DNA of 64,000 nucleotides. It comes from Ferrovibrio sp. Its GTDB lineage: Bacteria > Pseudomonadota > Alphaproteobacteria > Ferrovibrionales > Ferrovibrionaceae. Every line of letters begins with the position of its first letter. Within the stretch, counting starts at the first letter, position 1. Under the pieces are notes generated by a model. It searched no databases and was not told the origin of the DNA. It worked only from the letters and a program-made list of their open reading frames with translations. The position numbers were made by a program, and so were the translations under genes. Positions 19,937 to 48,777 of the stretch are shown here, in pieces. Where the stretch lies: positions 62,001-126,000 of the forward strand of contig NZ_JAOZVR010000091.1 in assembly GCF_025869515.1 (NCBI RefSeq). The letters are read 5' to 3'.

Positions 19937-21025
19937 ATGAATGCAACCGGTGGCAAGACGATCAAAATCGGCAACCGTCTGATCGGCGCGGGGCAGCCGG
20001 CTTATATTATCGCTGAAATCAGCCAGAACCATTGCGGTGAATTATCCAAGGCGAAGGAATTGGTCGATGCCGCCAAAGAGATCGGCTGCGATTCGGCTAA
20101 ATTCCAAACCTTCACGACCGAACTGTTCTGCGCCGACCGCTCCAAGATGTTCACATACCGGAGCCAGGGTCGTGATGTCACCGAAAGCGAATACGAGCTT
20201 CACAAGCGATACGAATTCACGCCCGATCAATGGGCCGAACTTGTAGCCTACTGCGAAAAACGCCAGATTCAATTTCTCACCACCATTCAGGATCCGATCA
20301 ATCTCGAATTGATGCTGACCTTGGGCCTGTGCGGTATCAAGATCGGTTCTGATGATTTCGATCATGTCGAGAACCTGCGAATTTATGCGCGAAGCGGCCT
20401 GCCTCTTCTGTTGTCAAAAGGCATGGCGGCACTTGGTGAAGTCGACCGCATTGTCCGCGTCCTACGCGCCGAAGGTGCGCAGGCGGCGATCATGCATTGC
20501 GTCTCGCTGTATCCGACTGGTGCGGAAAACCTCAACCTCCGTCAGATACAGACCTTGCAAAAACTGTATCCGGATATCGTGTGGGGTTTTTCCGATCACA
20601 GCCAGGGGCCGCTGGCCAGCACGCTTGCCGTAACGCTCGGCGCCAAGGTGATCGAGAAGCATTTCACACTTGATCACAACCTTCCCGGTCCCGATCACTG
20701 GTTCTCGATGGATGTTGGCGAAATGGCGCAACTGGTTCGCGACGTTCGCTTCGCCGAAGCCGCAATGGGCTCGGGCGATGTAGTCCCCGCTGCCGCTGAA
20801 CTGGCCGAGCGCAGCATACGCCGCCGCCGTGTGGTTGCCCGCAAAAATCTCAAGCCTGGCGACATGCTTGATGAGCAGTCCGTCACCTTCAAACGCGCCA
20901 GCAATGGCCTTTTCGTGTCGGAGTGGGATCTTGTGCGCGGCACACGCCTGCGTGCCGCCAAGCAGGAAAACGAAGGCATCGACCTCGCGGATATTGCCTT
21001 TGAAACCTCTGGCGCATCGACATGA
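19937..21025 (+). CDS. Nonulosonic acid synthase, NeuB/PseI family (branch 1)
   Basis: The 362 residues form a TIM-barrel NeuB domain plus a C-terminal antifreeze-like SAF domain (about 290 onward: RRRRVVARKNLKPGDML). NeuB enzymes condense phosphoenolpyruvate with a 6-carbon amino sugar to a 9-carbon keto acid. Canonical pieces are IIAEISQNHCG, MHCVSLYPT, GFSDHSQG, and the metal-ligand block EKHFTLDHNLPGPDH, the most classical of the three synthases here. Which sugar it uses (ManNAc, diNAc-bacillosamine-derived or altro form) cannot be read. A methylase precedes it and NeuA follows at 23557. Confidence 0.88.
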   Translation: MNATGGKTIKIGNRLIGAGQPAYIIAEISQNHCGELSKAKELVDAAKEIGCDSAKFQTFTTELFCADRSKMFTYRSQGRDVTESEYELHKRYEFTPDQWAELVAYCEKRQIQFLTTIQDPINLELMLTLGLCGIKIGSDDFDHVENLRIYARSGLPLLLSKGMAALGEVDRIVRVLRAEGAQAAIMHCVSLYPTGAENLNLRQIQTLQKLYPDIVWGFSDHSQGPLASTLAVTLGAKVIEKHFTLDHNLPGPDHWFSMDVGEMAQLVRDVRFAEAAMGSGDVVPAAAELAERSIRRRRVVARKNLKPGDMLDEQSVTFKRASNGLFVSEWDLVRGTRLRAAKQENEGIDLADIAFETSGAST

Positions 21026-21073
21026 GCCGTATTGCCGCGCGCCTGCCGACCAAAGCCATCGAAAGCCTGACTG

Positions 21074-21742
21074 ATGCCATTTGCTGAAGAGTGGGACCGC
21101 CTATACACCTCCAGCCGCCATCTGAGCATCTGGCCGTGGACCGACGTTGTGGCTTTGACGTTGCGCCACATCCGCCCCGCCTCACCTGATTTCCGGGTTC
21201 TGGAGCTGGGCTGCGGCGCGGGTGCCAATATTCCATTCTTCCGTTCGCTCGGCGTCGAATACTGGGCGATCGAAGGCAGTCCGGCGATCGTTGCGCAATT
21301 GCGCGAAACCTATCCCGACATGGCCGAGCGCATGCTGGTTGGCGATTTTACGCGCCAGATCGGCGCCCCCGGGCAATTCGACTTGATCCTGGACCGCGGC
21401 TCCCTGACGCACAACCAGACCTCCTGCCTGCGTCGCTCTCTGCAATTGCTCCGCAACGCACTGAAGCCTACCGGGCACCTTCTGTCGGTGGACATGTTCT
21501 CGACGGACTTCTCCGAATTCGCCGAGGGGGAAGCTGGCGAGGATCATTACACCCGAATCAACTTTACGCGGGGACGACTGGCCGGCACTGGCGTCGCCCA
21601 TTTCGCCGATGAAGTGCATTTGCGTGACCTCCTGTCGGATTTCACTATCGAGGTTCTGGAGCACAAGACCGTTAGGCAATTTGAGCCCCAGAACGGCGTG
21701 TTTGCCGCCTGGAACATCATCGCCCGCCCGGCGAATGCATAA
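21074..21742 (+). CDS. Class I SAM-dependent methyltransferase
   Basis: A 222-residue protein with SAM motif I VLELGCGAGANIPFF and the acidic loop YWAIEGSPAIV. A DRGSLTHN post-motif replaces the common DvlxxiPP. The layout resembles small-molecule methyltransferases found in flagellin and LPS loci. It lies between the branch 1 synthase and the ABC exporter, and is the second methyltransferase of the branch. It may methylate another hydroxyl of the nonulosonate or the nascent glycan; target unknown. Confidence 0.8.
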   Translation: MPFAEEWDRLYTSSRHLSIWPWTDVVALTLRHIRPASPDFRVLELGCGAGANIPFFRSLGVEYWAIEGSPAIVAQLRETYPDMAERMLVGDFTRQIGAPGQFDLILDRGSLTHNQTSCLRRSLQLLRNALKPTGHLLSVDMFSTDFSEFAEGEAGEDHYTRINFTRGRLAGTGVAHFADEVHLRDLLSDFTIEVLEHKTVRQFEPQNGVFAAWNIIARPANA

Positions 21743-21766
21743 GCCTTCCCGACCGCGGATATCATA

Positions 21767-23560
21767 GTGGCTAAATCCTCCTCAAAACCGGAAGCACTCT
21801 GGCGCAGCCTGTCGGCCATCGTTGCCGATTATGTGCCGCAGCATCCGTGGCGTTTCCTCATTGCGCTCCTGCTTCTGCTGCTGGCAGGCCTGGCAGAAAG
21901 TGTCGGCGTTCTATCGCTGCTGCCGCTGCTTGAGATACTACTGTTCCGAGGCAATGCCCGTTTCGACAACCCCGTCATGCAGGTATTCCTGCAGGCCTAT
22001 GCAGCCGTTGGCCTGGAACTGAATCTCACGACCGTTCTGGCCGGCATGCTGGCGGCCATACTGGTCAAGGCTGTGCTGCAATTTGTCTCCGAAGCGTATT
22101 TCGGCATCGTCTTCATCCAGATCACCCGCAACCTCCGCCTGCGCCTGCTGCGCGCCACCAGTGCGGCCAAATGGGCTTACTTCACCAGGGAACCGGCCGG
22201 CCGCCTGCTCAACGCTTTCACGACGGAAAGTCAGTCCTCCACCGATGCTGCAAAGCAACTGTTCGGGCTCGCCAACTTCACGATCCAAACACTTGTCTAT
22301 TTCGCAACTGCACTGCTGATCTCGTGGGAATTCACCGCACTGGCCTTGGTCTCGGGCATCTTCCTGCTTGTCAGCCTGAACAAGCTGATCAGCGTCTCGC
22401 GGCGACATGGCCGCCGTCGTACGGAGTTGATGCGCACATTCAGCAGCGGTGTGATTGATTGGCTGCATGGACTGAAATCGCTGAAGGCGATGCATCTCGA
22501 AGGCCTGCTGGCCCGCCGGCTTGCGGAAAATGTCGAAGGCATCTGCCGGGCGCAAACCCGGATTCAGCTATATGGCAGCATCATCAAGGCGCTGCAAGAA
22601 CCCTTCGGTATCGTGTTCCTGATGGGCGGCCTGATTCTCGCCGTTGAAGTGCTCGATGTGCCGCCGGCCGCCTTGCTTATTCTCGCCGGCATATTTCTCC
22701 GCACCATCGGTCGGATCAGCGGCATACAGAGTGCCCTGGTGAATATCGCCATCTTGGAATCGACCCACCACCAACTCGAAGCAACCATCCGCGCAGCCGA
22801 GGCTGCCGACGAGGCGCTTGAGAGCACGACGCATGGACGGCAGCCCCACCTGCAATCGGAATTGCGGGTCGAAGAGCTTTCCTTCTCCTACATCCCCGGC
22901 ACCCCGGTGCTGGAAAATCTTTCGCTCAATGTGCCGGTTGGATCATTGGTTGCCGTTGTCGGGACGTCGGGCGCGGGCAAGTCGACGCTGCTGGATCTGT
23001 TGTCCGGCCTGTCGCGCACTGAAACCGGCCGCATCATGGTCGACGGCAAGCCGCTATGGGATCACGATATCGCAGCCTGGAGACGCAGCATCGGCTATGT
23101 GCCGCAAGAAGCCGCATTGCTGCACGACACCATCCGCAATAACCTCACGCTCGGCGGTGAGTTTTCCGAAACCGATATCCAAACCGCTCTAGAGCGCGCC
23201 GGTGCAGCCGAGTTTGTTGCGGCACAAGCGAATGGCCTGGAAACAATGGTCGGCGAACGCGGCGCCTCTCTGTCAGGTGGACAGCGGCAGCGCCTGAGCA
23301 TTGCGCGCGCCCTGCTGAGAAAACCCATTCTCCTGCTGCTTGATGAGGCGACAAGCGCAATGGACGCTGAAACAGAGCGTGACTTCTGCGCAACGCTGGC
23401 AAAGCTGATTCCCGATATTACCGTCATCGCCATCACCCATCGCCCGGCGATCGAACGGATCGCATCTATTGCATACCGACTCGAGAATGGCCGGCTTACG
23501 GAACGGGCAGGCATGCTTCCATATCTGCCCAGTAGCGACAGAAACATCCAGACCGCTTGA
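21767..23560 (+). CDS. ABC transporter, membrane and ATPase domains (PglK/MsbA-like glycan flippase)
   Basis: A 597-residue half-transporter. The membrane domain starts at WRFLIALLLLLLAGLAESVGVLSLL; the GLAE/GxxP segment in helix 1 is typical of PglK/MsbA-like lipid-linked-glycan exporters. The ATPase domain is intact, with Walker A GTSGAGKSTLL, signature LSGGQRQRLSIARALL and Walker B ILLLLDEATSAMD. Starts with GTG. It ends overlapping the NeuA gene by 4 bases. No Wzx flippase is in the window, so this protein is the best candidate for moving a lipid-linked unit across the inner membrane; that is inference. Confidence 0.85.
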   Translation: MAKSSSKPEALWRSLSAIVADYVPQHPWRFLIALLLLLLAGLAESVGVLSLLPLLEILLFRGNARFDNPVMQVFLQAYAAVGLELNLTTVLAGMLAAILVKAVLQFVSEAYFGIVFIQITRNLRLRLLRATSAAKWAYFTREPAGRLLNAFTTESQSSTDAAKQLFGLANFTIQTLVYFATALLISWEFTALALVSGIFLLVSLNKLISVSRRHGRRRTELMRTFSSGVIDWLHGLKSLKAMHLEGLLARRLAENVEGICRAQTRIQLYGSIIKALQEPFGIVFLMGGLILAVEVLDVPPAALLILAGIFLRTIGRISGIQSALVNIAILESTHHQLEATIRAAEAADEALESTTHGRQPHLQSELRVEELSFSYIPGTPVLENLSLNVPVGSLVAVVGTSGAGKSTLLDLLSGLSRTETGRIMVDGKPLWDHDIAAWRRSIGYVPQEAALLHDTIRNNLTLGGEFSETDIQTALERAGAAEFVAAQANGLETMVGERGASLSGGQRQRLSIARALLRKPILLLLDEATSAMDAETERDFCATLAKLIPDITVIAITHRPAIERIASIAYRLENGRLTERAGMLPYLPSSDRNIQTA

Positions 23561-24264
23561 AAACGCTCGCCATCATACCGGCACGAGGTGGCTCCAAGCG
23601 GGTGCCACGCAAGAATCTCGCTCCGTGCGCCAATCGCCCGCTCCTGGCGTGGACCGCCGAAGCCGTGCGCAACAGTCGGAGCGTGTCACGCGCGATCCTG
23701 TCGACCGATGACCCCGAGATCGCCGCAGCAGGCCGGGAACTGGGCTTTGAAGTGCCGTTTCTGCGCCCCACCGAACTTAGCCGTGATGATACGCCCATGC
23801 TGCCGGTGCTCCAGCACCTGCTCCGAGCAGTTCAAGACGATTCCACGATTGATGCCGTGATTCTGCTGCAACCGTCGTCACCGCTGCGCACTGGCCGGCA
23901 TATTGACGAGGCCGTGGCCCTGTTCCAGAGCCAGCCCACCGGCTCCGTGGTCAGCGTGACCGTCGTGCCTCATCAGTACAATCCCTATAAGGTCATGCAG
24001 CAGCGGGACGGAGCCTTGGAGCCATTCCTGGCCAGCGAATACGTGCCCGGTGCCGCATCCTCAGCGTTACCACCCGTATTCGTTCGGAATGGACCGGCGA
24101 TCGTCGTATCCAGACCAGCCGATATATTGGCTGGTACCCTGTACGCGAACCCCTGCCGGCCCTACCTCATGCAGCCGGAGGATTCGATTGATATCGACAC
24201 TCCGTTCGACCTGATGCTTGCCGATGCCGCGTTACGACAGAGAACCTCTGAAGGTCCGGCGTGA
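23557..24264 (+). CDS. neuA: Acylneuraminate cytidylyltransferase family (CMP-nonulosonate synthetase, branch 1)
   Basis: A 235-residue NeuA/PseF-family enzyme with the CTP loop IIPARGGSKRVPRKNL, LLQPSSPLRTGRHIDEA with the conserved QPTSPLR-type segment, and IDIDTPFDL at the C-terminus with the metal-binding Asp. It activates a nonulosonic acid as CMP-sugar. Starts with TTG, its last two bases used by the preceding TGA. It partners by position with the NeuB at 19937. The symbol is used in the family sense; the exact sugar (Neu, Leg or Pse type) is undetermined. Confidence 0.85.
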   Translation: MKTLAIIPARGGSKRVPRKNLAPCANRPLLAWTAEAVRNSRSVSRAILSTDDPEIAAAGRELGFEVPFLRPTELSRDDTPMLPVLQHLLRAVQDDSTIDAVILLQPSSPLRTGRHIDEAVALFQSQPTGSVVSVTVVPHQYNPYKVMQQRDGALEPFLASEYVPGAASSALPPVFVRNGPAIVVSRPADILAGTLYANPCRPYLMQPEDSIDIDTPFDLMLADAALRQRTSEGPA

Positions 24265-25367
24265 TTCCATCCATTCCCCTTACGGCAAGACAACGCCTGT
24301 GGCGCCAGGCGGTTCGCTGGATCCTCGGCAAGCCGCGCGCAACTGTCTATTCGCAGGATATCATCAACTCCCCGCTGCCGATTGATGTGGGCGCCGAGAT
24401 CATCAACACCTGCAATGCTGACTGCTCATTTTGCGGTTATGGCAAAGGGCCGAAAGGCAAGGCTGCGGATCCGCGTCCGAAACGGAAGTTGGATCGGTCG
24501 ATCTACTCCCACATTCTGAAGCTTTACTCCGATGCTGGTGGCGGCTCGTTTGCCTTGTCACCCATCCTGGGTGAGATAACCGCGCACCCGGACTGGATCG
24601 ACATGGTGCGCGAGGCCCGCTCGCATGCCAACATCGTCGGCGTATCCTGCTTCACCAACGCAATCCTGTTCGATCGTTTCGACACGAAGGAGGTTCTGAC
24701 CTCCGGCCTTACGCATATGGCCATCTCTACTAGTCTGGGGTCGCGCGAGCAATACAAGCGTCTCTATGGTGTCGATAAATACGATCAGGTTGTCAGCAAT
24801 ATCCTGAATCTTTTGCGTATGAACGCCACGCTTGGCCGCCCCATCCTTTTCAGCCTGCTGCTGCGGATCGATAAGCCGTTCGACGTCTTCCTGTCCTCTG
24901 ATCTCTACAAGGAGATCACCACCTATATCGATCCAGGCAACATCGAGATTCTCGATAACCTCTGGGATGACTTCCACGGCGTTATCGGACAGGACGGCAT
25001 ACCTGTCGGGCATGAATTCAAGTATAACGCCGTCGACAAGACCGTTCCCTGCTATGCGCTCTTCCGCAAGCTCCAGGTCCTGATCGATGGCACGATACAA
25101 GGTTGCTCATGCCGCGTTGAACCGGAACTATGGGCCGGCAACATCAAGGATTATCAGAGTCTGGGCAGCGCCTGGCGCGATCCGGCCCTGCAGCGCTTGC
25201 GCGACAACTGGGCCGCAGGAAACATTCCCGACTGCTGCAAGAAATGCTCGCATTATCAGCCCTTCACTAACCTGATTGAAGATACCTCGCCGGCGCGGCT
25301 GGCGCGCAGCCTGGCTCGTCGCCTTCTGCGCCGGCGTCCGCGCGAAGCCGTCATGTCGGATTCGTAA
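24261..25367 (+). CDS. Radical SAM/SPASM domain protein
   Basis: The 368 residues contain a radical SAM cluster motif CNADCSFC (Cys51, Cys55, Cys58; CxxxCxxC) and a C-terminal SPASM-like auxiliary-cluster region with Cys264, Cys282, Cys284, Cys325, Cys326 and Cys329. Such enzymes use 5'-deoxyadenosyl radicals to modify peptides, sugars or cofactors. It overlaps the NeuA gene (GTGA), so a role in modifying a nonulosonate or its carrier is suggested by linkage. No RiPP precursor was found nearby. The reaction cannot be predicted. Confidence 0.82.
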   Translation: MIPSIPLTARQRLWRQAVRWILGKPRATVYSQDIINSPLPIDVGAEIINTCNADCSFCGYGKGPKGKAADPRPKRKLDRSIYSHILKLYSDAGGGSFALSPILGEITAHPDWIDMVREARSHANIVGVSCFTNAILFDRFDTKEVLTSGLTHMAISTSLGSREQYKRLYGVDKYDQVVSNILNLLRMNATLGRPILFSLLLRIDKPFDVFLSSDLYKEITTYIDPGNIEILDNLWDDFHGVIGQDGIPVGHEFKYNAVDKTVPCYALFRKLQVLIDGTIQGCSCRVEPELWAGNIKDYQSLGSAWRDPALQRLRDNWAAGNIPDCCKKCSHYQPFTNLIEDTSPARLARSLARRLLRRRPREAVMSDS

Positions 25368-25391: not shown

Positions 25392-26783
25392 TTGTCCAAC
25401 ATGCTTAAGTCTGGCGGCCTCCGCCTGCTCAGGTCCTTGCTCAGTTCCGAGCCCGGCCTGTTCCTGATTGCACTGGCTGTGTCCTGCACGTTGAAGCCGA
25501 TCAACACCGGCCGTGCTGACGGGAAGACTCGACTGAGAGTGGCCGTCTTCAGCCGTGAGCGCTGGCGTCAGGATGTAGAGACCCTTGGCCGGATCGAGAA
25601 CCTGCAGCTGTTGGATTTCCCCACCCGTCTGGTGGAGCTGATCAATGCAATCCTACAACCACCCCGGACGCGGCGGCGCTATGCGCCCGGCGACTACTTC
25701 CTTGAAGCCGACCCCATGGTCCTCGAGGATCGCGACCGTCACGCCGCACGTATTGCCAAGGTCATGCAGTGGGTTCGAAAATGGCGGCGACTCGATTGCG
25801 CGGTCAGCGGTGCGTTCAAATATGTCCGGGAAGTGCCCTTTGCACGTGCTTGCAACTATATCAACCTGCCATTCGTCGCCCTGCACAAAGAATTCACCGT
25901 GCTTGAACCACAGCATGTCGCCCAACGGGCGACCGAAGCGCGCAACCTCGGTTTCCGTTTCTTTGGTAGTCATTTGGCCGTGGTCAGTGAAACGGCAAAA
26001 AAACTGATGGCGGATGCAGGGATTTTCCCGTCGACCAAGATTTCCACGATCGGTCTGATGCGCGCGGATTCCCTGCACCGGGAAGCGCATCTGCCACAGG
26101 CCACAGCCTCCTCCGGCCAACGCCCGCAACTGACGCTTTTTTCCTTTGGCACTCTGACCGGTCCATTTCCGTCGCCACTGCCACCCTTGCGCTCTTATTA
26201 CTTCAGCGCCGATGAAAGTTGCGGCTTCACTGAGCTTTTTGCCGATGTGCATGGCGGCTTTGCGGAAATGGCGATCAAGCACCCGGAAGCCGACTTCCTG
26301 ATCAAGCCCAAGAATGTGGAAGACTGGTGGATCCGCGAAATCGACGCCATTGTCCGGTCGGCGACCGGCCTGCAGATCCGCGACATCCCCAACCTGCGCA
26401 TCGTTGGCGACTCCGCTCCGATATTGATGCGCCGATCGCTGGCCAACATCGTCCTGAACTCCACCACGGTCATCGAATCGCGCGTGCTGGATCGCAATAC
26501 GATTATTCCGATCTTCGCCGAAGCAGCAGGGCGACACGCAGACATGATTTATTTCCGGGATTATCTTGATCTTTTCAGCATTGCGGAATCCAAGCAGGGC
26601 CTCCAGAAACTTTTGGAACAGGCACTGCAAGGACATGATCTGCGCCGGGGCAGCCCGGAACGGCTCCAGGCATTCTTAAATCAGCAGATCGGCAATCCGG
26701 ACGGTCGCGCGGCCGAACGATTCTCCGAGCTGCTACATCGCGCGGCCGGCAAGTCCGAGTACCGCTCCGGCGCCGCCGCCTGA
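25392..26783 (+). CDS. Unassigned surface-carbohydrate protein, possible GT-B-type glycosyltransferase
   Basis: Not recognised with certainty; 463 residues. The N-terminus is hydrophobic (PGLFLIALAVSC). The C-terminal half has FLIKPKNVEDWW followed by NIVLNSTTVIES, a Lys-Pro then Ser-Thr-Thr spacing also seen in the proteins at 26783 and 48818. It recalls the donor half of KpsS/CDP-glycerol-type GT-B transferases. It starts with TTG at 25392, spaced correctly from GAAGG; an in-frame ATG at 25401 is the alternative. It overlaps the next gene by one base (TGATG) and stands two genes before an SpsF-type cytidylyltransferase. Confidence 0.6.
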   Translation: MSNMLKSGGLRLLRSLLSSEPGLFLIALAVSCTLKPINTGRADGKTRLRVAVFSRERWRQDVETLGRIENLQLLDFPTRLVELINAILQPPRTRRRYAPGDYFLEADPMVLEDRDRHAARIAKVMQWVRKWRRLDCAVSGAFKYVREVPFARACNYINLPFVALHKEFTVLEPQHVAQRATEARNLGFRFFGSHLAVVSETAKKLMADAGIFPSTKISTIGLMRADSLHREAHLPQATASSGQRPQLTLFSFGTLTGPFPSPLPPLRSYYFSADESCGFTELFADVHGGFAEMAIKHPEADFLIKPKNVEDWWIREIDAIVRSATGLQIRDIPNLRIVGDSAPILMRRSLANIVLNSTTVIESRVLDRNTIIPIFAEAAGRHADMIYFRDYLDLFSIAESKQGLQKLLEQALQGHDLRRGSPERLQAFLNQQIGNPDGRAAERFSELLHRAAGKSEYRSGAAA

Positions 26784-37763: not shown

Positions 37764-38375
37764 ATGATTGGTGTCATCGACTATGGCCTGGGCAACCTGA
37801 GGTCAGTGGTCGGCGCGTTGGGGAAACTCGGTGCGAGCGCAGAGCTCGTCGCAACACCGCAGGCTGTGGCCCGGGCTGACAAGCTTATTCTGCCTGGGGT
37901 CGGTGCATTCGGCCGGGGCATAAACAACCTGCGGGAACGCGGCCTCGATGCTGTCATTCGCGATCGCGTTCTCACAGCCGGTATTCCCATCTTGGGCATT
38001 TGCCTGGGTATGCAACTGTTAGCAAGCCAGAGTTCGGAATTCGGTCAGCATCCCGGACTAGACTTGATCCCCGGCGACGTCACACGCCTTACCTCTGATG
38101 CCACGGGAGAACGCGTCCCTCATGTCGGTTGGAATACAATCCGACAAATCGAATTCAGCCGTTTGCTGCAGGGCGTATCCGAAAACGCCTATTTCTATCA
38201 CGTCCACAGCTTCCACTTCCGGCCGAAGGACGAGACTGCGGCCGTTGCCGAATGCACCCATGGCCATGCCTTCTGCACTGTCGTCGAGAAGGGGCATATT
38301 TTCGGGGCGCAGTTCCACCCTGAGAAAAGCCAGCGGCAGGGCCTGCAGGTATTGACGAACTATCTCGCGCTATGA
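37764..38375 (+). CDS. HisH-type glutamine amidotransferase subunit (glycan acetamidino pathway)
   Basis: The 203 residues form a class I glutaminase with the triad Cys80 (GICLGMQLL), His185 and Glu187 (GAQFHPEKSQ). Such a HisH paralogue feeds ammonia through its HisF partner, encoded immediately downstream with a 4-base overlap. Histidine biosynthesis is unlikely: there are no other his genes, and a WbpG-type amidotransferase lies 1.7 kb downstream. The trio HisH2-HisF2-WbpG is the known set that turns an N-acetyl group into an acetamidino group on LPS or flagellin sugars. Confidence 0.88.
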   Translation: MIGVIDYGLGNLRSVVGALGKLGASAELVATPQAVARADKLILPGVGAFGRGINNLRERGLDAVIRDRVLTAGIPILGICLGMQLLASQSSEFGQHPGLDLIPGDVTRLTSDATGERVPHVGWNTIRQIEFSRLLQGVSENAYFYHVHSFHFRPKDETAAVAECTHGHAFCTVVEKGHIFGAQFHPEKSQRQGLQVLTNYLAL

Positions 38376-39127: not shown

Positions 39128-39141
39128 TTTTTTTGAACATC

Positions 39142-41253: not shown

Positions 41254-42158
41254 GCGCCACGCTTTCCCCTTTCGCCTGCGACGTATGCGGTAGCATGGAG
41301 GCGGCCGAGATTCCGGTCGTTCCGGATTATTCGGGTGGGCAGACTCTTCATACCTGCACGCAGTGCGGATTTGTCTTTGCCCATATGCGTCGATCCGACG
41401 AAGCGATCAAGAAAGACTGGGCCGAAAGCATGTTCGGCGACGCCTTCGATGTCGAGCAGACGGAAAACACCGGCTATACCGGCTATACCGCCAAGGTGCC
41501 TGCCGTCACTGCCCGCCTGACATACGCGCTTGAGAATTTCGACACCCTGGTCGGCTTCAAAGGAAAGAAGGTCTGCGACATCGGTGCCGGCGAAGGCGAT
41601 TTCCTGGAGATGATTAAATCCCGGAAGAACCCTGAGAGCGTGTTCGGGGTCGAGCCGTCGGTGGAAAACTGCAGGCTGCTTGATGGCATGGGTATCTCCT
41701 GCTTTGCCGGGGGCGTCGAGGAGTATATCGCGCACCCTGACACCAAGAAGGGCGCCTTCGATTTCATCGGTCTCAATTGGACTCTTGAAAACACGCAGAA
41801 CGCACGTCGCGTGATTGAAGCGGTTTATGACTTGCTGCCAGTAGGCGGGTACCTGCAAGTGGCAACTGGCAGCCGCATTCTGGTGCCGTTCAAGAAGCCG
41901 CTGCACTATTATTTCAACCCACGCAATCCCGTCGACCTGCATTCCTTCCACTTCAGCGCCAATGCCCTGTGCGGATTGCTCGGTTCGGTCGGCTTCGATC
42001 CGATTCACGTCAATCGCTACATCGACACCGACTATCTGGTCGTCATCGGGAAAAAGATGGAATCCGGCGCCAAAAAGCCGTGGCCGCGCGACGACTACAC
42101 CCGCGTTATCGCATTCTTCGAACGCTGGAAGAAGGAAACCGACGAGAATTATCTCTAG
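41250..42158 (+). CDS. Class I SAM methyltransferase with N-terminal zinc ribbon
   Basis: A 302-residue methyltransferase: N-terminal Cys4 ribbon (CDVCGS and CTQCGF), SAM motif I VCDIGAGEGDFLEM, then LNWTLENTQNARRV and SFHFSANALCGLLGSVGF. It is of the same broad type as the gene at 17353 but not closely similar. Coupled by ATGA to the amidotransferase gene, and 20 bases before a NeuB-family synthase. It may methylate the acetamidino group or a hydroxyl of the branch 3 sugar, as PtmH-type proteins are thought to do. Inference from context. Confidence 0.82.
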   Translation: MSATLSPFACDVCGSMEAAEIPVVPDYSGGQTLHTCTQCGFVFAHMRRSDEAIKKDWAESMFGDAFDVEQTENTGYTGYTAKVPAVTARLTYALENFDTLVGFKGKKVCDIGAGEGDFLEMIKSRKNPESVFGVEPSVENCRLLDGMGISCFAGGVEEYIAHPDTKKGAFDFIGLNWTLENTQNARRVIEAVYDLLPVGGYLQVATGSRILVPFKKPLHYYFNPRNPVDLHSFHFSANALCGLLGSVGFDPIHVNRYIDTDYLVVIGKKMESGAKKPWPRDDYTRVIAFFERWKKETDENYL

Positions 42159-42178
42159 GCAGAAATGGCGGCCACCGC

Positions 42179-43177
42179 ATGACCGTGTTCCATAACAGCG
42201 TTATCGCCGAAATCGGCTCTGTGCATGATGGCAGCTTCGGCAACGCGTGCAAACTCATTGCGCTGGCCGCCGAACTGGGAGCGGATTGGGCCAAGTTCCA
42301 GACCCATATTGCCGAAGCAGAGACACTGGCCAATGCCCCGTCGCCCGCATACTTCCGGGGCGAACCCAGGATGGAGTATTTCCGGCGCACTGGTTTCTCG
42401 CTGGAGCAGTGGCGTGGACTGAAAACGAAAGCCACTGAGGCGAAGATAAACTTTCTGTCGTCGCCATTCTCGCTTGAGGCGGTCGACCTGCTCGAGGCTG
42501 TTGGCGTCGACGCTTACAAGATTCCTTCGGGTGAGGTCACCAACCTGCCGCTCCTGGAGCGTGTTGCTGCAACCAGAAAGCCGACCCTGTTATCCTCGGG
42601 AATGAGCGACTGGGCTGAGCTCGACCGTGCCGTTGCGGCCCTGCGCCCGGGCGGACCGCTCATCATCATGCAATGCACATCCGCCTATCCCTGTCCGCCG
42701 GATTCCTGGGGACTGAACGTGATCGGAGAGATGTCGCAGCGCTACCGCCTACCGGTTGGTTTCTCCGATCATTCAGTGGGGCTTGCAGCCCCCATCGCTG
42801 CGGCCGCGTTGGGAGCCGTCTGCATTGAAAAACACCTAACATTCTCAAAGAAAATGTACGGTTCGGACGCCGCTAATGCGATGGAACCTGAGGGGTTCGC
42901 CGCGATGGTAGATGGTCTGCACGAGACCTGGACAGCATTCGGCAGTCCGGTCAACAAAGATGACATGAGCGCATTTGCCGATATGAAGCGCATCTTCGAG
43001 AAAAGCATCGTTTCGGCACGAGCACTCGACGCCGGAGCCATCCTCAAATTCGAAGACCTGGCATTTAAAAAACCCGGCGATGGCATATCCGCCACCCGTT
43101 TCAAGGAAGTAATCGGCAAACAAGTCAGGCAGCAATTGCCGGCTGATCATAAATTCACCGAGAAAGATTTCAAATGA
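42179..43177 (+). CDS. Nonulosonic acid synthase, third NeuB-family member (branch 3)
   Basis: A 332-residue NeuB-family protein starting at the ATG at 42179 (MTVFHNSVIAEIGSVHDG). The usual AEIGxNHxG reads AEIGSVHDG, and the metal-ligand block is EKHLTFSKKMYGSDAANAMEP with the expected GPDH lost. A C-terminal SAF-like domain follows (RALDAGAILKFEDL). These changes set it apart from the other two synthases. The next gene, overlapping by 4 bases, is a NeuC-type hydrolysing epimerase, so ManNAc or a 6-deoxy-2,4-diamino-mannose is the probable acceptor, giving a neuraminic or legionaminic acid. That assignment is inferred. Confidence 0.85.
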   Translation: MTVFHNSVIAEIGSVHDGSFGNACKLIALAAELGADWAKFQTHIAEAETLANAPSPAYFRGEPRMEYFRRTGFSLEQWRGLKTKATEAKINFLSSPFSLEAVDLLEAVGVDAYKIPSGEVTNLPLLERVAATRKPTLLSSGMSDWAELDRAVAALRPGGPLIIMQCTSAYPCPPDSWGLNVIGEMSQRYRLPVGFSDHSVGLAAPIAAAALGAVCIEKHLTFSKKMYGSDAANAMEPEGFAAMVDGLHETWTAFGSPVNKDDMSAFADMKRIFEKSIVSARALDAGAILKFEDLAFKKPGDGISATRFKEVIGKQVRQQLPADHKFTEKDFK

Positions 43178-44325
43178 GGAAAATCTGTATTGTCGTTGGG
43201 TCCCGCGCGAACTACAGCAGCATCAAGTCGGTCATGCGCGCCGTTCAGGCGCATCCTGATCTCGAACTGCAGCTGATCGCCGTCGCCTCAGCACTGCTGG
43301 ACCGATACGGTAAGGTCAGCGATATCATCGAGAAGGATGGCTTCAAAATCAGCGCCCGGGTCAACATGCTGATCGAAGGCGAGACCCCAGTCACGATGGC
43401 CAAGTCGGCCGGTCTTGGCCTGCTGGAGCTGCCCACCGTCCTTGAATCGCTGCAACCCGACGTTGTCCTGACGGTCGGAGATCGCTACGAGACCGTATCG
43501 ACCGCCGTGGCAGCGGCCTATATGAACATACCGCTCGCTCACACCATGGGCGGCGAAGTTTCCGGTACCATTGATGAGAGCATCCGGCACGCCATTACCA
43601 AATTCGCCCACATCCACTTCCCGGCTACACAAGGTGCCGCCGAACGTATCATCCGCTTGGGCGAGCACCCAGATACGGTCTACATGGTGGGCTGCCCCAG
43701 AGTGGATCTGGTGCAGGAAATCCTTGCAAACCCGGTAACTGTGCGGAACGGCCGCCTCATGCAAGGCGGCGTCGGCGATCCGATCGACATTTCCCAACCC
43801 TTCCTGCTGGTCTCCCAGCATCCAGTCACGACCGAGTATGGGCGTGGACAGGATCAGATCAGCGCCACCCTGGAAGCGATCAAGGCCGTCGGCCTGCCGG
43901 CCATCGTGTTATGGCCGAATGCAGATGCCGGCTCGGAAGATATAGCGCGCGGCATCCGCAAGTGGCGCGAACGTGGCCTTGCGCAGGGATTGCACTTCTT
44001 CAAGAATCTTCCGATCGACACCTATGTCGAGCTTATGGCACGGACAGCCTGCCTCGTCGGAAACTCCTCGAGCGGCATCCGCGAAGGTGCCTTCATCGGC
44101 ACGCCCGTCGTCAATGTTGGCTCCCGCCAAGATCAGCGGGAGCGCGGCCACAACGTAGTCAACGCATCCCACACTAAAAGCGACATCGAGAAAGCCATCA
44201 CCGATCAGATTAAACATGGCAAGTATGCGCCGGATCCGCTGTACGGCGATGGCCGCTCAGGTGAGAGGATTGCCAACATCCTGGCCACTGCCAGTATATC
44301 GATCCAGAAGCACATCACCTATTAA
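43174..44325 (+). CDS. neuC: UDP-N-acetylglucosamine 2-epimerase, hydrolysing (NeuC/LegG type)
   Basis: A 383-residue GT-B-fold epimerase. VVGSRANYSSIKSVM, VGDRYETVSTAVAA, TMGGEVSGTIDESIRHAITK and VGNSSSGIREG all follow the NeuC/LegG pattern and not that of the non-hydrolysing WecB. It removes UDP while inverting C2, yielding a free ManNAc-type sugar for a NeuB synthase. Coupled to the NeuB gene at 42179 (ATGA). Whether the substrate is UDP-GlcNAc (Neu) or UDP-2,4-diNAc-bacillosamine (Leg) cannot be read from sequence. Confidence 0.9.
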   Translation: MRKICIVVGSRANYSSIKSVMRAVQAHPDLELQLIAVASALLDRYGKVSDIIEKDGFKISARVNMLIEGETPVTMAKSAGLGLLELPTVLESLQPDVVLTVGDRYETVSTAVAAAYMNIPLAHTMGGEVSGTIDESIRHAITKFAHIHFPATQGAAERIIRLGEHPDTVYMVGCPRVDLVQEILANPVTVRNGRLMQGGVGDPIDISQPFLLVSQHPVTTEYGRGQDQISATLEAIKAVGLPAIVLWPNADAGSEDIARGIRKWRERGLAQGLHFFKNLPIDTYVELMARTACLVGNSSSGIREGAFIGTPVVNVGSRQDQRERGHNVVNASHTKSDIEKAITDQIKHGKYAPDPLYGDGRSGERIANILATASISIQKHITY

Positions 44326-44352: not shown

Positions 44353-45417
44353 GTGAAACTGGAACAATTCCACAGCCCGCCGCACCTAGGCGGACCCCTT
44401 GATCTGACCGATACCTCGATTCTGGTGACGGGCGGCACCGGATCTTTCGGTAAGGCATTTATCCGACACCTGCTCGATCAGACGCGGGTGCGCCGTATTG
44501 CGGTGTATTCCCGCGATGAACACAAGCAATCCGATCTTGCTCTCGCGCTCAACGCTGCCGATCATGAACGGGTCCGCTTCTTCATCGGTGACATCCGTGA
44601 CCTCGATCGTCTGTCGATGGCGATGAAGAATGTCGATTATGTCGTCCATGCGGCGGCAATGAAGATTGTCCCCGCAGCCGAATATAATCCGTTTGAATGC
44701 ATACAGACGAATATCATTGGTGCTGAGAACGTTGTTCGCGCGTCCCTGCAGCATAGCGTGAAGCGCATCATAGCCCTGTCCACCGACAAGGCAGCCAGCC
44801 CGATCAATCTGTATGGCGCGACGAAGCTGGCATCGGACAAGATTTTTGTTGCTGCCAACCATCTAGCTGGCGGCGATGGCGGTAGGTTCTCAGTTGTCCG
44901 CTACGGCAATGTCATGGCGTCGCGCGGCAGCGTACTGCCTTTTTTCCGCAAGCTGATTGCGCAGGGGGCAGTCGATCTCCCCATCACAGATGAGCGCATG
45001 ACCCGCTTCTGCATCACCTTGGGGCAGGGCGTTTCTTTTGTGCTGTCGTCACTGGCGATGATGCGCGGCGGAGAAATTTTTGTTCCGAAGATACCCAGCA
45101 TTCGTGTGGTGGACCTGGCGCACAATCTGGCGCCGAATCTACCGCTCCGCATGGTCGGCATACGACCCGGCGAAAAACTGCACGAAATGATGATAACCAC
45201 GGACGATGCGCGCACCACCGTTGAGCTGGATGATCGCTACATCATTGAGCCGGCGATTCATTTGTGGGACCGACAGAGATCCAGCCTGCTTGAGGAGACC
45301 GGTACCAGAAAAGTGGCCGAAGATTTTCATTACTCCAGTGACATCAATACGCACTGGCTGACGGGAAGAGATCTGTCCGAATTCATTGCCGCCGGCGAGG
45401 CGGATGCCAGAATCTGA
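44353..45417 (+). CDS. pseB: UDP-N-acetylglucosamine 4,6-dehydratase (inverting), PseB-like
   Basis: A 354-residue SDR. TGGTGSFGKAFIRHLL and VYSRDEHKQ form the cofactor region. LSTDKAASPINLYGATK carries the Asp-Lys-Tyr set of inverting UDP-GlcNAc 4,6-dehydratases, and EDFHYSSDINTHWL is the characteristic PseB C-terminus. It makes UDP-4-keto-6-deoxy-L-IdoNAc, the first step to pseudaminic acid; PseG- and PseF-like genes follow at 47031 and 48073. An L-FucNAc/L-QuiNAc role with the RmlD-like next gene is the alternative. Starts with GTG. Confidence 0.88.
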   Translation: MKLEQFHSPPHLGGPLDLTDTSILVTGGTGSFGKAFIRHLLDQTRVRRIAVYSRDEHKQSDLALALNAADHERVRFFIGDIRDLDRLSMAMKNVDYVVHAAAMKIVPAAEYNPFECIQTNIIGAENVVRASLQHSVKRIIALSTDKAASPINLYGATKLASDKIFVAANHLAGGDGGRFSVVRYGNVMASRGSVLPFFRKLIAQGAVDLPITDERMTRFCITLGQGVSFVLSSLAMMRGGEIFVPKIPSIRVVDLAHNLAPNLPLRMVGIRPGEKLHEMMITTDDARTTVELDDRYIIEPAIHLWDRQRSSLLEETGTRKVAEDFHYSSDINTHWLTGRDLSEFIAAGEADARI

Positions 45418-45463: not shown

Positions 45464-46342
45464 ATGACTATTGTCGTCACCGGTGCGTCCGGAATGCTGG
45501 GCCGCCACCTAATGCCAGGCCTGGCACCGCTGGGGCGCCTGCATGGCATTGCCCGTCAACCTGCAGGTATGGTTAGCCATACGGTCGACCTCGCCGACGC
45601 AGCTTCGGTGAATCTGCTTTTTGATGAGCTGATCCCAGATTGCATTGTCCATTGTGCCGCGCTGGCGAACGTCGATGCCTGCGAAGCCGACATGTCTCTG
45701 GCTTACGCGGCAAATGTGCAGGCTACAAAGAATATTGTCGATTGGCTCGGCCGTAAACGCCCACAGGCGAGGCTGATTTATATCTCCTCCGACCAAGTAT
45801 ATGACGCTCCCGGCTTCAGCCGCGAAGATACTGTTGCCCCCTGCAATGCGTACGCATTGACGAAATTGTGGGGCGAGGATTTCGCGCGCCATGCGACGAA
45901 TCACCTGATCCTACGGACCAACTTCTTCGGGTCACCGGCACGCGGGCAAACTGGCCAGGTCGGCTGGCTTCTGCGCAAAGCGACTGCCCGCCAGGCCAGC
46001 ACACTCTTCACTGACGTCTTTTTCAACCCCCTTTATGTCAACGATCTGGTCGCCCTTCTTCCCGAGCTTGTGTCCGGCGAGTTATGCGGCACGTTCAATC
46101 TTGGCAGCAGCGGCGCCGGACTATCCAAAGCCCAATTCTTCCGGCTTCTGGCCAGTGCCATGGACGTTGCGACCGATTGGATGCGGGATGGCAGCGTTTC
46201 TGATGTTGCGCTGAAAGCGCGGCGCCCTCGAGATATGCGGATGGATGTTGGCGCGATAGAGTCTGCTCTGGGCCGTCGCCTGCCGGATCTGGAAGACAGC
46301 ATTAATCGCTTGGCACAGGATTGGCGCGAGGTGAATCGATGA
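45464..46342 (+). CDS. RmlD-like NAD(P)-dependent sugar reductase
   Basis: A 292-residue SDR of the dTDP-4-dehydrorhamnose reductase family: IVVTGASGMLGRHL, ALANVDACEADM, ISSDQVYD and AYALTKLWGEDF with Tyr-x3-Lys. It probably reduces a 4-keto nucleotide sugar. No RmlABC set is nearby, so dTDP-rhamnose is unlikely; a product of the adjacent PseB-like dehydratase is possible. The ATG at 45464 matches the family start. An ATG at 45404, overlapping the pseB stop and with a better ribosome site, is a real alternative. Confidence 0.82.
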   Translation: MTIVVTGASGMLGRHLMPGLAPLGRLHGIARQPAGMVSHTVDLADAASVNLLFDELIPDCIVHCAALANVDACEADMSLAYAANVQATKNIVDWLGRKRPQARLIYISSDQVYDAPGFSREDTVAPCNAYALTKLWGEDFARHATNHLILRTNFFGSPARGQTGQVGWLLRKATARQASTLFTDVFFNPLYVNDLVALLPELVSGELCGTFNLGSSGAGLSKAQFFRLLASAMDVATDWMRDGSVSDVALKARRPRDMRMDVGAIESALGRRLPDLEDSINRLAQDWREVNR

Positions 46343-47031
46343 ATCGCATTTTAGTGGTTGCCGCGCATCCGGATGACGAAGTTCTTGGTTGCGGTGGCAT
46401 GATCGCCGCAGCCCGGGACAAGAAGCGGGACGTCAGAGTCATCTTCCTCGCGGAAGGCGTGATGTCCCGCTACTCCGCCGACCAGATCAACAGCCCTGCG
46501 GCTCTTGAAGCCAGCCGCCTGCGTAATGCCAACGCCTTCAAAGCGCTCGATATCCTGGGCGTACCAGCGGATCAGGTATTCGTATCCGAACGCCCCTGCT
46601 GCCGCCTTGATCAGGCTTCCCTGCTGGCTCTCACCCAGGAAATCGAGGCGCACCTGAAGGATTTCAGGGCCAGTGTCGTTTACACTCACGCCCAGAATGA
46701 TCCCAACATCGATCACCAGATTGCCTTTAAAGCCGTGCTGCCGGCGGTGCGGCCGCTCGGCCCTCAGAGTCCCAAGGCTGTGTACAGCTTCGAGGTACTG
46801 TCTTCCACGGAATGGAATCCGGCCCACCCATTCCAGGCGAACTGCTTCGTGGACATATCGTCGTCGATCGACCGGAAAATATCGGCCCTTGCCGCCTATG
46901 GCGATGAAATGCGGCCGGCTCCCCATCCTCGTTCGGAAGATATGGTCCGCAGCCTGGCCCGCTTCAGGGGCGCGCAGAGCGGCCTGAATTATGCCGAGTC
47001 CTTCAACCTGATTCGTGCCATCGAGTCGTGA
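46339..47031 (+). CDS. PIG-L/LmbE family N-deacetylase
   Basis: A 230-residue PIG-L protein with the zinc motif AAHPDDEVLGCGG (His-Pro-Asp-Asp near the N-terminus) and the third ligand region NDPNIDHQIAF. These enzymes remove N-acetyl groups from GlcNAc-like sugars. Members occur in nonulosonate loci, where they may open an amine for another acyl, formyl or amidino group. Coupled to the RmlD-like gene (ATGA) and to the PseG-like gene (stop overlaps start). A longer start at 46321 was not used. Confidence 0.88.
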   Translation: MNRILVVAAHPDDEVLGCGGMIAAARDKKRDVRVIFLAEGVMSRYSADQINSPAALEASRLRNANAFKALDILGVPADQVFVSERPCCRLDQASLLALTQEIEAHLKDFRASVVYTHAQNDPNIDHQIAFKAVLPAVRPLGPQSPKAVYSFEVLSSTEWNPAHPFQANCFVDISSSIDRKISALAAYGDEMRPAPHPRSEDMVRSLARFRGAQSGLNYAESFNLIRAIES

Positions 47032-48062
47032 TGGCACCCGTCAGCGTTATTCTGCGCTGCGATGCCGGCGAACAGGCCGGCTATGGCCATCTCTCTCGCT
47101 GCGTCATCCTCGCCGGAGCCCTGGCTGCGGCTGGCGCGAACCCAAAAATCTTGATCAATGGCGGCGGGGATGCAGCCCTTGATTTTGCAACCCGCAACGG
47201 CATTGTCGCGACCCAGGCCCCTTTCCTGTTTGGCACGGCCGCAGATACAGAGCACCTGCTGTCCGTCCTGCAAGTGTCCCGATCCCCGGTCATCGTCGTC
47301 CTGGATTCGCGCAATTTGAATGCCGGCCACACGGAGGCAATCACAAGCGTTGCCCCGACCGTAGTTCTGGACGATGAAGCGTTACGCGATCTGCCCTGCA
47401 GTCTTCTGATTAATCCCAACTTCTGGGTCCGAGTGACGGATTATCCGCATGCCGCTGCTGCGCGCCGGATACTAAGCGGAGCAGCATACAACCTCATAAA
47501 CCCGGAATACTTTACGCAGCGCAGCCTGCCCCGCTCCTCTCCCCCAAGTCGCATCCTGATCACAATGGGCGGCGAAGACCCCTGGAACTGCACATCATGG
47601 CTGATCCGGAATGCGGCAGACATCCTGAACAACTGGACTGTTGATGTGGTTGTGGGGCCATTTCATCCTGACCGGACGGATGTGGAACGCGCCGCAGAAT
47701 TGCTGACCAGAAAGCATCTGACCGTTGCGCCCGCCGGACTCACTTCCCTCATCGCTTCAGCCGATCTGGCGCTGACAGCCGGTGGAACCACATGCTACGA
47801 ACTTGCCGCCTCCGGCGTGCCGATGGCTGCCGTGATACTGGAACCGCATCAGGGGAAATTCGTGGATCGCCTGGTCGACCACGGCGCCGCAATGGTCTTG
47901 GCCAGTTTTGCCGACAAATCCACGGATGACATGCGGACCCGCCTGAAATCCCTTCTGGCGGATACCGCGGTCAGCCAGGATCTGATCGCGGCCGGCCGCA
48001 AATTATTCGAAGGCCCCGGCGCTTCGCGCGTTGCCGCTGCAATCCTGACGCTCGAATTATAG
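47031..48062 (+). CDS. pseG: PseG/SpsG-like UDP-sugar hydrolase
   Basis: The 343 residues resemble PseG/SpsG: ILRCDAGEQAGYGHLSRC with the catalytic His of the GxGH(x)MR motif, VLDDEALRDLPCSLLINPN, and a GT28-like donor half with LTAGGTTCYELAASGVP. PseG cleaves UDP from UDP-2,4-diacetamido-trideoxy-altropyranose to give the PseI substrate. The gene lies just before a PseF-like gene and 1.6 kb after pseB. Start chosen at the ATG 47031 (overlapping TGA); the GTG at 47028 is in frame. An SpsG-type role in another branch is possible. Confidence 0.82.
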   Translation: MAPVSVILRCDAGEQAGYGHLSRCVILAGALAAAGANPKILINGGGDAALDFATRNGIVATQAPFLFGTAADTEHLLSVLQVSRSPVIVVLDSRNLNAGHTEAITSVAPTVVLDDEALRDLPCSLLINPNFWVRVTDYPHAAAARRILSGAAYNLINPEYFTQRSLPRSSPPSRILITMGGEDPWNCTSWLIRNAADILNNWTVDVVVGPFHPDRTDVERAAELLTRKHLTVAPAGLTSLIASADLALTAGGTTCYELAASGVPMAAVILEPHQGKFVDRLVDHGAAMVLASFADKSTDDMRTRLKSLLADTAVSQDLIAAGRKLFEGPGASRVAAAILTLEL

Positions 48063-48072
48063 GATATCTGGA

Positions 48073-48777
48073 ATGTTCGCCTATATACCAGCTCGCGGCG
48101 GGTCTCAGCGTATAGCGCGCAAGAATATAAAAACCCTTGGCGGTAAGCCGATTATTGTCCATGTTATTCAGGCATTGCAGGCCGTTCCGGGCATTGACCG
48201 CATTCACGTCTCGACGGATGACAGGGAGATCAGGGCAATTGCCGAAGCACATGGCGCAGTTTGCCTCGAACCCCGCAGCTCCGATCTGTCGAACAGTAAA
48301 GCCGGCTTCATAGATCTCATTCGCGAAGATATTCCGAGATACATCGAGGCGAATGGCGGTACATCTGAGGTCGTTTTTGCACTCGCAACAGCAGCATTAG
48401 TACCCGCGGCAGTGTATTCCGATGCAATTTCAGCCTTTCAGCAGAATCGACCTGATGTTCTGATGAGCTGCGAATCCTACGATCATCCGGTCTGGTGGGC
48501 ATTCCGGCAGAAGCAGGATGGGTTCTGGACACCGATTTTCCCCGACAAGGTTCAGACCAACTCTCAGGATCTGCCACCGGCACTCACCGATTCCGGGCTG
48601 TTCTATGTCTTCGACCAGAAGGTACTGAGCCGTTTCCCATCCCATAAACTGGTCGACAAGCTACTTCCGTATGAAGTGCCCGCAGCCTATCGCTGCGATA
48701 TCGACACACCGGAAGATTGGGAGCGGCTGGAATGGAAATACCACCGACTGCACCAGGCAACGAGTTGGCAGGAATGA
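48073..48777 (+). CDS. PseF/NeuA-type CMP-nonulosonate cytidylyltransferase (branch 3)
   Basis: A 234-residue cytidylyltransferase: CTP loop YIPARGGSQRIARKNIK, STDDREIRAIAE, the conserved LATAALVPAAVYSDA (in place of the usual QPTSPLR) and RCDIDTPEDWERLE with the metal-binding Asp. The pattern, including LATAAL, fits PseF better than the NeuA at 23557. It follows the PseG-like gene by 10 bases. It would activate the branch 3 sugar as the CMP derivative for the transferase encoded next. Confidence 0.86.
   Translation: MFAYIPARGGSQRIARKNIKTLGGKPIIVHVIQALQAVPGIDRIHVSTDDREIRAIAEAHGAVCLEPRSSDLSNSKAGFIDLIREDIPRYIEANGGTSEVVFALATAALVPAAVYSDAISAFQQNRPDVLMSCESYDHPVWWAFRQKQDGFWTPIFPDKVQTNSQDLPPALTDSGLFYVFDQKVLSRFPSHKLVDKLLPYEVPAAYRCDIDTPEDWERLEWKYHRLHQATSWQE

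Follow-up and report, generated by a model that had tools for sequence, protein, structure and literature searches.

The window analysed here, 64,000 nucleotides of a Ferrovibrio sp. genome (assembly GCF_025869515.1, contig NZ_JAOZVR010000091.1, positions 62,001 to 126,000 of the forward strand), contains an island of nonulosonate genes built around three NeuB-family synthases. Thirty-two genes, all on the + strand, run from a WbqC family gene (18554) to AsnB2 (52255) with no gap greater than 67 bp and with frequent 4-bp overlaps, in agreement with the operon-like island described in an earlier, sequence-only reading of this DNA. The synthases were located where that reading had placed them, their quoted motifs (EKHFTLDHNLPGPDH, LEVHMTDQKANRTFRDH and EKHLTFSKKMYGSDA) are all present in the translations, and the cytidylyltransferase motifs RGGSKRVPRKN (23557), FNSSRLPGK (28308) and RGGSQRIARKN (48073) were likewise recovered. 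A Pfam NeuB profile search of the whole assembly, which is 94.7% complete, returned exactly three members, all in the window:

19937–21025, + strand: NeuB1, assigned to branch B
30762–31772, + strand: NeuB2, assigned to branch C, with a shortened substrate loop
42179–43177, + strand: NeuB3, assigned to branch A, predicted to be of the Neu5Ac type (N-acetylmannosamine [ManNAc] plus phosphoenolpyruvate [PEP])

Gene content, clade membership, gene neighborhoods and the lack of any PseC scoring over cut-off were observed directly, and from these the reactions and products given below are predicted; taken together, they suggest that this one run probably encodes three separate nonulosonate routes (A, B, and C) whose genes are interleaved.

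To place the synthases, a maximum-likelihood tree was built from 60 NeuB sequences, comprising the three window synthases, three solved references, and 54 locus sequences picked by hand from 127 (113 distinct). NeuB1, NeuB2, and NeuB3 are 29 to 33% identical to one another and fell, as the sequence-only reading had supposed, into three separate supported clades with different gene sets: NeuB1 in a clade of seven (support 100/96), NeuB2 in a clade of 12 (100/100), and NeuB3 in a clade of seven nested in one of 12 (100/99 each). None of the three references, two of them on long branches, clusters with any of the window synthases. Constraining the three to a single clade, the outcome that had been named as refuting distinct branches, costs 577 log-likelihood units and is rejected by the approximately unbiased (AU) test (p 1.6e-61). 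None of the three passes the PseI model (214, 199.5, and 227 bits for NeuB1, NeuB2, and NeuB3; cut-off 340.25).

Residues K129, Y186, H215, and H236 (Neisseria meningitidis numbering, Nm) are invariant in 119/119 aligned NeuB sequences, and D247 is found in 118/119 and in all three window synthases; these conserved residues are taken to be catalytic, in part after PMC7371886. Several positions distinguish the synthases. Asp at Nm133 occurs only in the NeuB1 clade (7/119), Lys or Arg at Nm155, beside Ser154, only in three of the 119, all NeuB1 sequences linked to an RmlD-like gene (see below), and NeuB3 has Lys instead of Arg314, while residue 184 is Ser in all three synthases and gives no separation. 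The NeuB2 loop spanning Nm55 to Nm90 has 27 residues, as compared to 35 to 40 in NeuB1, NeuB3, and the three solved references; the region around positions 70 to 85 is described as setting specificity at sugar C4–C6 (PMC7371886).

Matches at E 1e-60 or better to NeuB3 were detected in 5/18 genomes of the order and to NeuB1 in 2/18, this genome included in both counts, and among nine other genomes of the genus one matched NeuB3 (40%) and one NeuB1 (37%). Genome searches for relatives of the island proteins scored only the best five or six candidates per genome, and matches covering less than 0.25 to 0.5 of the query were dropped by script before counting. Because matches are sparse within both order and genus, the branches of NeuB1 and NeuB3 were probably acquired, a pattern that would also be expected if the island were a collection of remnants, that is, a mosaic of acquired fragments in which one or more branches are dead. 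This last explanation appears highly improbable, given that the translations of the listed island genes contain no internal stops, that 4-bp overlaps recur along the run, and that all three NeuBs keep K129, Y186, H215, H236, and D247. Guanine–cytosine content per 2 kb is 53.5 to 60.3% across positions 14001 to 52000, slightly below the 57.9 to 63.0% across 1 to 14000; no tRNA was found in the window, and positions 14000 to 53000 were free of repeats of 30 bp or longer.

Branch A is composed of NeuB3 and two further genes:

43174–44325, + strand: NeuC, hydrolysing UDP-GlcNAc 2-epimerase (TIGR03568, 393 bits; cut-off 236)
23557–24264, + strand: CMP1, cytidylyltransferase (CTP_transf_3, 71.7 bits)

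NeuC adjoins NeuB3-clade members in 11/11 relatives of the 12-member clade, and near the six closest NeuB3 relatives (53–68% identical) the nearby NeuC is 58 to 70% identical to that of the window. A cytidylyltransferase lies at most 4.3 kb from NeuB3 in all six, and its best match within a comparison set of the window cytidylyltransferases and the PseF of Mariluticola is CMP1 (30–48% identity). Genome G341 carries CMP1-like and CMP3-like genes both, the former directly upstream of NeuB3 and the latter adjoining the methylase gene PseMeT. Since NeuC and CMP1-like genes neighbor NeuB3 in relatives, branch A is read as a NeuC-NeuB3-CMP1 trio of the N-acetylneuraminic acid (Neu5Ac) type, in which NeuC would make ManNAc, NeuB3 would join ManNAc and PEP, and CMP1 would activate the product. 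NeuB3 scores 329 bits against the NeuB_NnaB model, below its cut-off of 399.65. Across the assembly, four CTP_transf_3 proteins exceed the cut-off, namely the three in the window and a full-length protein on another contig, presumably KdsB.

Branch B joins NeuB1 to genes at either end of the run:

44353–45417, + strand: PseB, inverting UDP-GlcNAc 4,6-dehydratase (TIGR03589, 503.6 bits; cut-off 407.75)
45464–46342, + strand: RmlD-like 4-keto reductase, in the PseC slot (PF04321, 145 bits; rmlD equivalog, 139 bits, under the cut-off of 224)
46339–47031, + strand: PIG-L family N-deacetylase (PF02585, 82 bits; HPDD motif, which we take as support for this assignment)
47028–48062, + strand: PseG-like UDP-sugar hydrolase (TIGR03590)
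48073–48777, + strand: CMP3, cytidylyltransferase, directly after PseG
19262–19924, + strand: PseMeT methylase, accompanying branch B (TIGR03587, 166 bits; cut-off 112)
18554–19231, + strand: WbqC family protein, a possible N-acyl step (PF08889, 251 bits)

Neighborhoods were tabulated for 20 genomes over stretches of unequal length, so that absences there are weak. All six NeuB1-clade relatives carry PseB (53–60%), a PseG-like gene (22–31%), and a PIG-L gene, and five of the six carry a WbqC copy at 42 to 49%. PseC follows PseB in four of them (the Mariluticola plasmid, G403, G179, and G168), with no RmlD seen within the fetched stretch. In the two closest relatives, G273 and G346, which form a subclade with NeuB1 (100/98), an RmlD-like gene occupies the PseC slot; NeuB1 of G273 is split over two fetched stretches, and its context was taken from separate neighborhood data. 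The Mariluticola record is annotated in the order PseB-PseC-PseF-PIG-L-PseG-NeuB-hypothetical-WbqC, and the PseB-RmlD-PIGL-PseG-CMP3 genes of the window form a series of this kind in which PseC has been exchanged. In that record, the product annotated as hypothetical, encoded between NeuB and WbqC (L119:15035–15742), matches formyltransferases, and N-formylation may accompany the pathway.

The linkage of the reductase to PseB extends beyond the NeuB1 clade. At E 1e-40, relatives of the RmlD-like protein were found in nine of 376 genomes, this one included (at most six candidates scored per genome), and in 8/8 of the others RmlD adjoins PseB. The fetched stretches hold a NeuB of some type in seven of these eight, and PseMeT is present in five. 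In four genomes (G341, G176, G329, and G061), a different NeuB type lies directly downstream, in the order PseB-RmlD-NeuB; support for two independent joinings of PseB-RmlD to NeuB is borderline (AU p 0.0501). One TGA is reported inside the matched stretch of RmlD in both G176 and G329. A weak RmlD match in WL3 (26%) beside a PseB-like gene was read as part of another pathway and was not counted.

No full-length DegT protein of the genome reaches the PseC cut-off of 423.5 bits, the four scoring 295, 226, 232, and 121 bits, as compared to 550 bits for the Mariluticola PseC as positive control. The sequence-only reading had counted one PseB, one NeuC, one PseG, and one sugar aminotransferase; this count holds for the window (full-length aminotransferases being meant), while the genome contains three further full-length DegT proteins, including one that lies 2.7 kb beyond the window. 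It is unlikely that branch B yields ordinary pseudaminic acid through the DegT protein at 35420, or another DegT, acting as PseC while the RmlD-like protein serves some other sugar. The 35420 protein shares 34% identity with a genuine PseC, and PseC is also its best NCBIfam match, but it scores, as do the other three, well under cut-off, it belongs to the NeuB2 gene set, in which PseB is matched at only 2/42 loci, and RmlD adjoins PseB in 8/8 relatives. The pattern of branch B looks like that of a pseudaminic-type pathway in which a C4 reductase has replaced the aminotransferase PseC.

The cytidylyltransferase of branch B is probably CMP3, on two grounds: it follows PseG, and the copies most similar to it, in G341 (55%) and G268 (42%), both lie beside PseMeT in the PseB-RmlD gene group. 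Neither CMP3 (147.3 bits) nor CMP1 (123.5 bits) reaches the PseF cut-off of 205.7, and the Mariluticola PseF control scores 320.6.

The product of PseB is UDP-2-acetamido-2,6-dideoxy-L-arabino-hexos-4-ulose, a UDP-4-keto-6-deoxy-L-sugar. In branch B, the RmlD-like reductase would turn the C4 keto group into a hydroxyl where PseC would aminate, giving a 6-deoxy-L-altro (or ido) sugar; the PseG-like hydrolase would free 6-deoxy-L-N-acetylaltrosamine (6-deoxy-L-AltNAc) or its C4 epimer, NeuB1 would condense this with PEP, CMP3 would activate the product, and PIG-L, WbqC, and the methylase may alter its N- and O-groups. The expected product is a 5-acylamino-3,5,9-trideoxy-nonulosonate with OH rather than NH2 at C7. 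This predicted product matches, in composition and at C5–C8, fusaminic acid, a constituent of the Fusobacterium nucleatum ATCC 25586 O-chain that is described as a 5-acetimidoylamino-3,5,9-trideoxy-nonulosonate, tentatively of L-glycero-L-gluco configuration (PMC13014188; Vinogradov 2017 via PMC7371886). The same O-chain also holds 2-acetamido-2,6-dideoxy-L-altrose (PMC13014188), so that a 3,5,9-trideoxy sugar with a C7 hydroxyl occurs together with its likely precursor, as a combination of PseB, C4 reductase, and NeuB would predict. By our own reading of the prefixes, L-glycero-L-gluco differs from the L-glycero-L-manno of pseudaminic acid only at C4, which is set in the NeuB step; since the prefixes differ only there, C5–C8 of fusaminic acid would be those of 6-deoxy-L-AltNAc. 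This fit is derived here, against a configuration that was published as tentative. Searches of open-access papers found no published gene cluster for fusaminic acid or 6-deoxy-L-AltNAc.

The presence of the altrosamine as a plain hexose beside fusaminic acid in F. nucleatum (PMC13014188) also fits a different assignment, in which PseB-RmlD makes UDP-6-deoxy-L-AltNAc only as a polymer hexose and NeuB1 uses another substrate; G350, which has PseB-RmlD and no NeuB in the 19 kb fetched, points in the same direction. We consider this distinctly unlikely for the window, where a PseG-like gene follows in the same run, given that six NeuB1-clade relatives sit with PseB and PseG and that a second NeuB type lies directly downstream of PseB-RmlD in the four genomes named above.

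Several observations nonetheless weigh against the proposed branch B. From the G350 arrangement, PseB-RmlD may also serve a plain hexose. The PseG-like protein scores 135.4 bits, under the PseG cut-off of 153.55, and PseG was matched in 2/8 PseB-RmlD relatives, with none seen in the other six. Just two genomes link CMP3 to branch B; a CMP3-like gene was seen in neither G273 nor G346, three PseC-bearing relatives have nearby cytidylyltransferases whose best match is CMP2, and the Mariluticola PseF is about equidistant from CMP1 (103 bits) and CMP3 (109 bits). The other NeuB type that accompanies PseB-RmlD lacks the Nm155 change. A PseC might lie in the missing part of the 94.7%-complete assembly, the reductase product could be ido rather than altro, and the C4 configuration of fusaminic acid, opposite to that of the pseudaminic series, is unexplained by branch B. 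Finally, with five or six candidates scored per genome, relatives may have been missed.

Branch C surrounds NeuB2. Its gene set was defined from loci with a NeuB2 at least 49% identical (42 of 46 loci examined, 80 having been fetched; matches at E 1e-6); of these 42, 28 span at least 20 kb. Fractions give the NeuB2 loci with a match:

28308–29006, + strand: CMP2, SpsF-like cytidylyltransferase (PF02348, 77 bits; 25/42)
29003–29827, + strand: formyltransferase-like protein (PF00551; 22/42)
29824–30765, + strand: polysaccharide deacetylase family protein (PF01522; 13/42)
31794–33632, + strand: AsnB1, AsnB-like glutamine amidotransferase (TIGR01536, 384 bits, cut-off 267; 37/42)
33629–34387, + strand: GNAT acyltransferase (PF00583; 25/42)
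34389–35384, + strand: Gfo/Idh dehydrogenase (PF01408; 24/42)
35420–36580, + strand: DegT aminotransferase (TIGR03588, 295 bits, under the PseC cut-off; 25/42)
36648–37736, + strand: short-chain dehydrogenase/reductase (SDR), probably of epimerase type (PF01370, 138 bits; SSSTVYG, which we take to be an epimerase-type motif, and no dehydratase motif; 27/42)
37764–39127, + strand: HisH and HisF2-like pair, predicted acetamidino formation (TIGR01855, 223.5 bits, cut-off 105.4; TIGR03572, 231 bits, under 299.7; 15/42 each)
40111–41253, + strand: WbuX, N-acetyl sugar amidotransferase (TIGR03573, 321 bits, cut-off 203; 34/42, many distant at ~30%)
41250–42158, + strand: methyltransferase (7/42, at 42–48%)

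Precursor enzymes were rarely matched in the 42 loci (NeuC in one, PseB in two, PseG in one). Because these are nearly missing, the NeuB2 set is taken to lack the aldose-making enzymes of Neu5Ac, legionaminic acid, and pseudaminic acid; the branch C SDR scores 73 bits for LegB, as compared to a cut-off of 475. SDR, DegT, and Gfo/Idh were all unseen in five of the 28 loci of at least 20 kb (L016, L017, L036, L038, and L039). In the genome of L036, NeuB2 is the sole NeuB match, no PseC exceeds cut-off, and the best match to the PseC model (279.5 bits) lies ~210 kb away; NeuB2 can therefore occur without another synthase. NeuB2 was also considered as a pseudaminic acid synthase on account of L016, where PseB, PseC, and PseG matches follow it, an ambiguous case with another NeuB ~14 kb along the contig, and this assignment was not adopted. 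At one locus (L020:7404–8597 and 10001–11017), a gene read from its sequence as flagellin-like is 1.4 kb away from the NeuB2 relative, so that this type of synthase may act in flagellin glycosylation elsewhere.

NeuB2 and its conserved partners would make a third ulosonate, aminated and amidinated. In one elaboration, the short-loop NeuB2 would join PEP to an ordinary aldose that carries no amino group, and once the chain is formed the ulosonate would be activated, oxidised, aminated, and epimerised by CMP2, Gfo/Idh, DegT, and SDR. The full combination, in which one cell would produce three distinct ulosonates in parallel, two of them by routes for which no description was found (a 9-deoxy-7-hydroxy, fusaminic-type sugar via PseB and a C4 reductase in place of PseC, and the branch C product via such late amination), is rather doubtful. 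Two points stand against a defined branch C. It lies outside every named pathway, only its gene set being described, and distant HisH/HisF/WbuX copies are found near NeuB3 in G113, G665, and G341, as are HisH/HisF copies in WL3. Because distant copies also occur near NeuB3, these genes were placed in branch C on the closer, NeuB2-side copies, those most similar (about 45–73% identical) accompanying NeuB2.

The combined neighborhoods bear on how the interleaved genes should be wired. The sequence-only reading had paired each synthase with its nearest cytidylyltransferase; this is retained for NeuB2 with CMP2 at 28308, and the neighborhoods of relatives speak against it for NeuB1 and NeuB3. Its assignment of the acetamidino genes to NeuB3 likewise fails, given that their closest copies travel with NeuB2. 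Wiring by nearest neighbor throughout (NeuB1 with 23557, NeuB3 with 48073 and the acetamidino genes) agrees with distances within the window and draws on the distant HisH/HisF copies near NeuB3 in some relatives, and co-expression cannot separate the wirings in one operon-like run. Such wiring is very unlikely in view of the CMP1-like genes near NeuB3 in 6/6 relatives, the PseB and PseG genes with NeuB1 in 6/6, and the NeuB2-side HisH/HisF/WbuX copies, and for two branches pairing by proximity probably does not hold. Sharing of early intermediates between branches, raised by the sequence-only reading, is not favored, PseB fitting B, NeuC fitting A, and the single aminotransferase fitting C. 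The branches recombine between genomes in a “mix and match” fashion: A and B occur together in G273 and G346, A and C in G113 and G665, A, B, and a set read as legionaminic-type in G341, and B with C or part of C in G329 and G061. Nine NeuB2-bearing genomes examined have one to four NeuB genes each.

Three large proteins in the run, starting at 25392, 26783, and 48731, have no Pfam match, and two of these are candidate branch-specific transferases on co-occurrence only:

26783–28294, + strand: candidate branch A glycosyltransferase
48731–50431, + strand: candidate branch B glycosyltransferase, no family match

Relatives of the 26783 protein were found in 4/6 close branch A genomes and 0/14 others tabulated; by profile, G665 joined them as the fifth branch A genome, and L048, L077, L055, and L028 gave weak matches. 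Relatives of the 48731 protein were found in 6/8 PseB-RmlD genomes and 0/12 others tabulated, and also in L034 and L053, where the fetched stretch shows no PseB-RmlD. Predicted structures had mean predicted local distance difference test scores of 45.5 (48731–50431) and 41.2 (26783–28294), too low for a fold search.

Other features accompany the island. The gene at 39133–40074 has no Pfam match, and its start presumably resembles a sulfotransferase nucleotide loop; the sulfate-activation genes CysD and a fused CysN-CysC stand at the end of the stretch (58497–61357), and together these suggest a sulfated glycan. CMP1 and the radical SAM gene that follows it (23557–25367) overlap by 4 bp. Of the spiro-SPASM model TIGR04321, the first part matches the cytidylyltransferase at 28308–29006 and the second part the radical SAM protein at 24261. 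Before the run, a DltB-like MBOAT acyltransferase and then a GDSL-like protein (14971–17363) form a possible O-acetylation pair. Shortly beyond the end of the window, a second Gfo/Idh-like gene is found close to a DegT of a different type (L129:16–3748), and we take the two to resemble a 2,3-diamino uronic acid set.

Branch B offers a testable gene set (PseB, RmlD-like reductase, NeuB, cytidylyltransferase, and methylase) for a nonulosonate class known to us only from Fusobacterium structure work, along with a simple prediction rule for that class, PseB followed by RmlD instead of PseC, and its product may be a rare sugar that has elsewhere been described from an oral bacterium. Branch C represents a recurrent gene set round a NeuB-type synthase without known precursor enzymes. 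The rewiring of two of three branches by neighborhood comparison illustrates that pairing sugar genes by distance misleads in interleaved islands.

As compared to the Neu5Ac pathway (NeuC-NeuB-NeuA), branch A has the same trio of NeuC, synthase, and cytidylyltransferase, close together in relatives, and differs in that NeuB3 scores under the NeuB_NnaB cut-off and the cytidylyltransferase of the window lies 18 kb off. Branch B retains PseB and a NeuB synthase of the pseudaminic pathway (PseB-PseC-PseH-PseG-PseI-PseF), together with a hydrolase resembling PseG and a cytidylyltransferase resembling PseF, both under their family cut-offs; it differs in having an RmlD-like reductase in the place of PseC and a NeuB1 that scores under the PseI cut-off and does not group with Campylobacter jejuni PseI in the tree. 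Within the PseB-RmlD-PIGL-PseG-NeuB genes of G346, a fused cytidylyltransferase-reductase-like protein is followed by an SDR (L104:8640–11011), which by reading, with no family search, resembles the EpaA/EpaB pair described for 8-epimerisation of pseudaminic acid (PMC12053666); no such pair was seen in the window. Several nonulosonate synthases in one genome are a known kind of arrangement, with three NeuB reported in C. jejuni (PMC7591256) and several in Leptospira interrogans (PMC3438082), and the count of three is thus not in itself new. What sets the present island apart from these genomes is that all three synthases are interleaved in one 32-gene run and that two of its branches do not correspond in full to any named pathway, the exchange of PseC for RmlD and the orphan NeuB2 set being the parts of interest.

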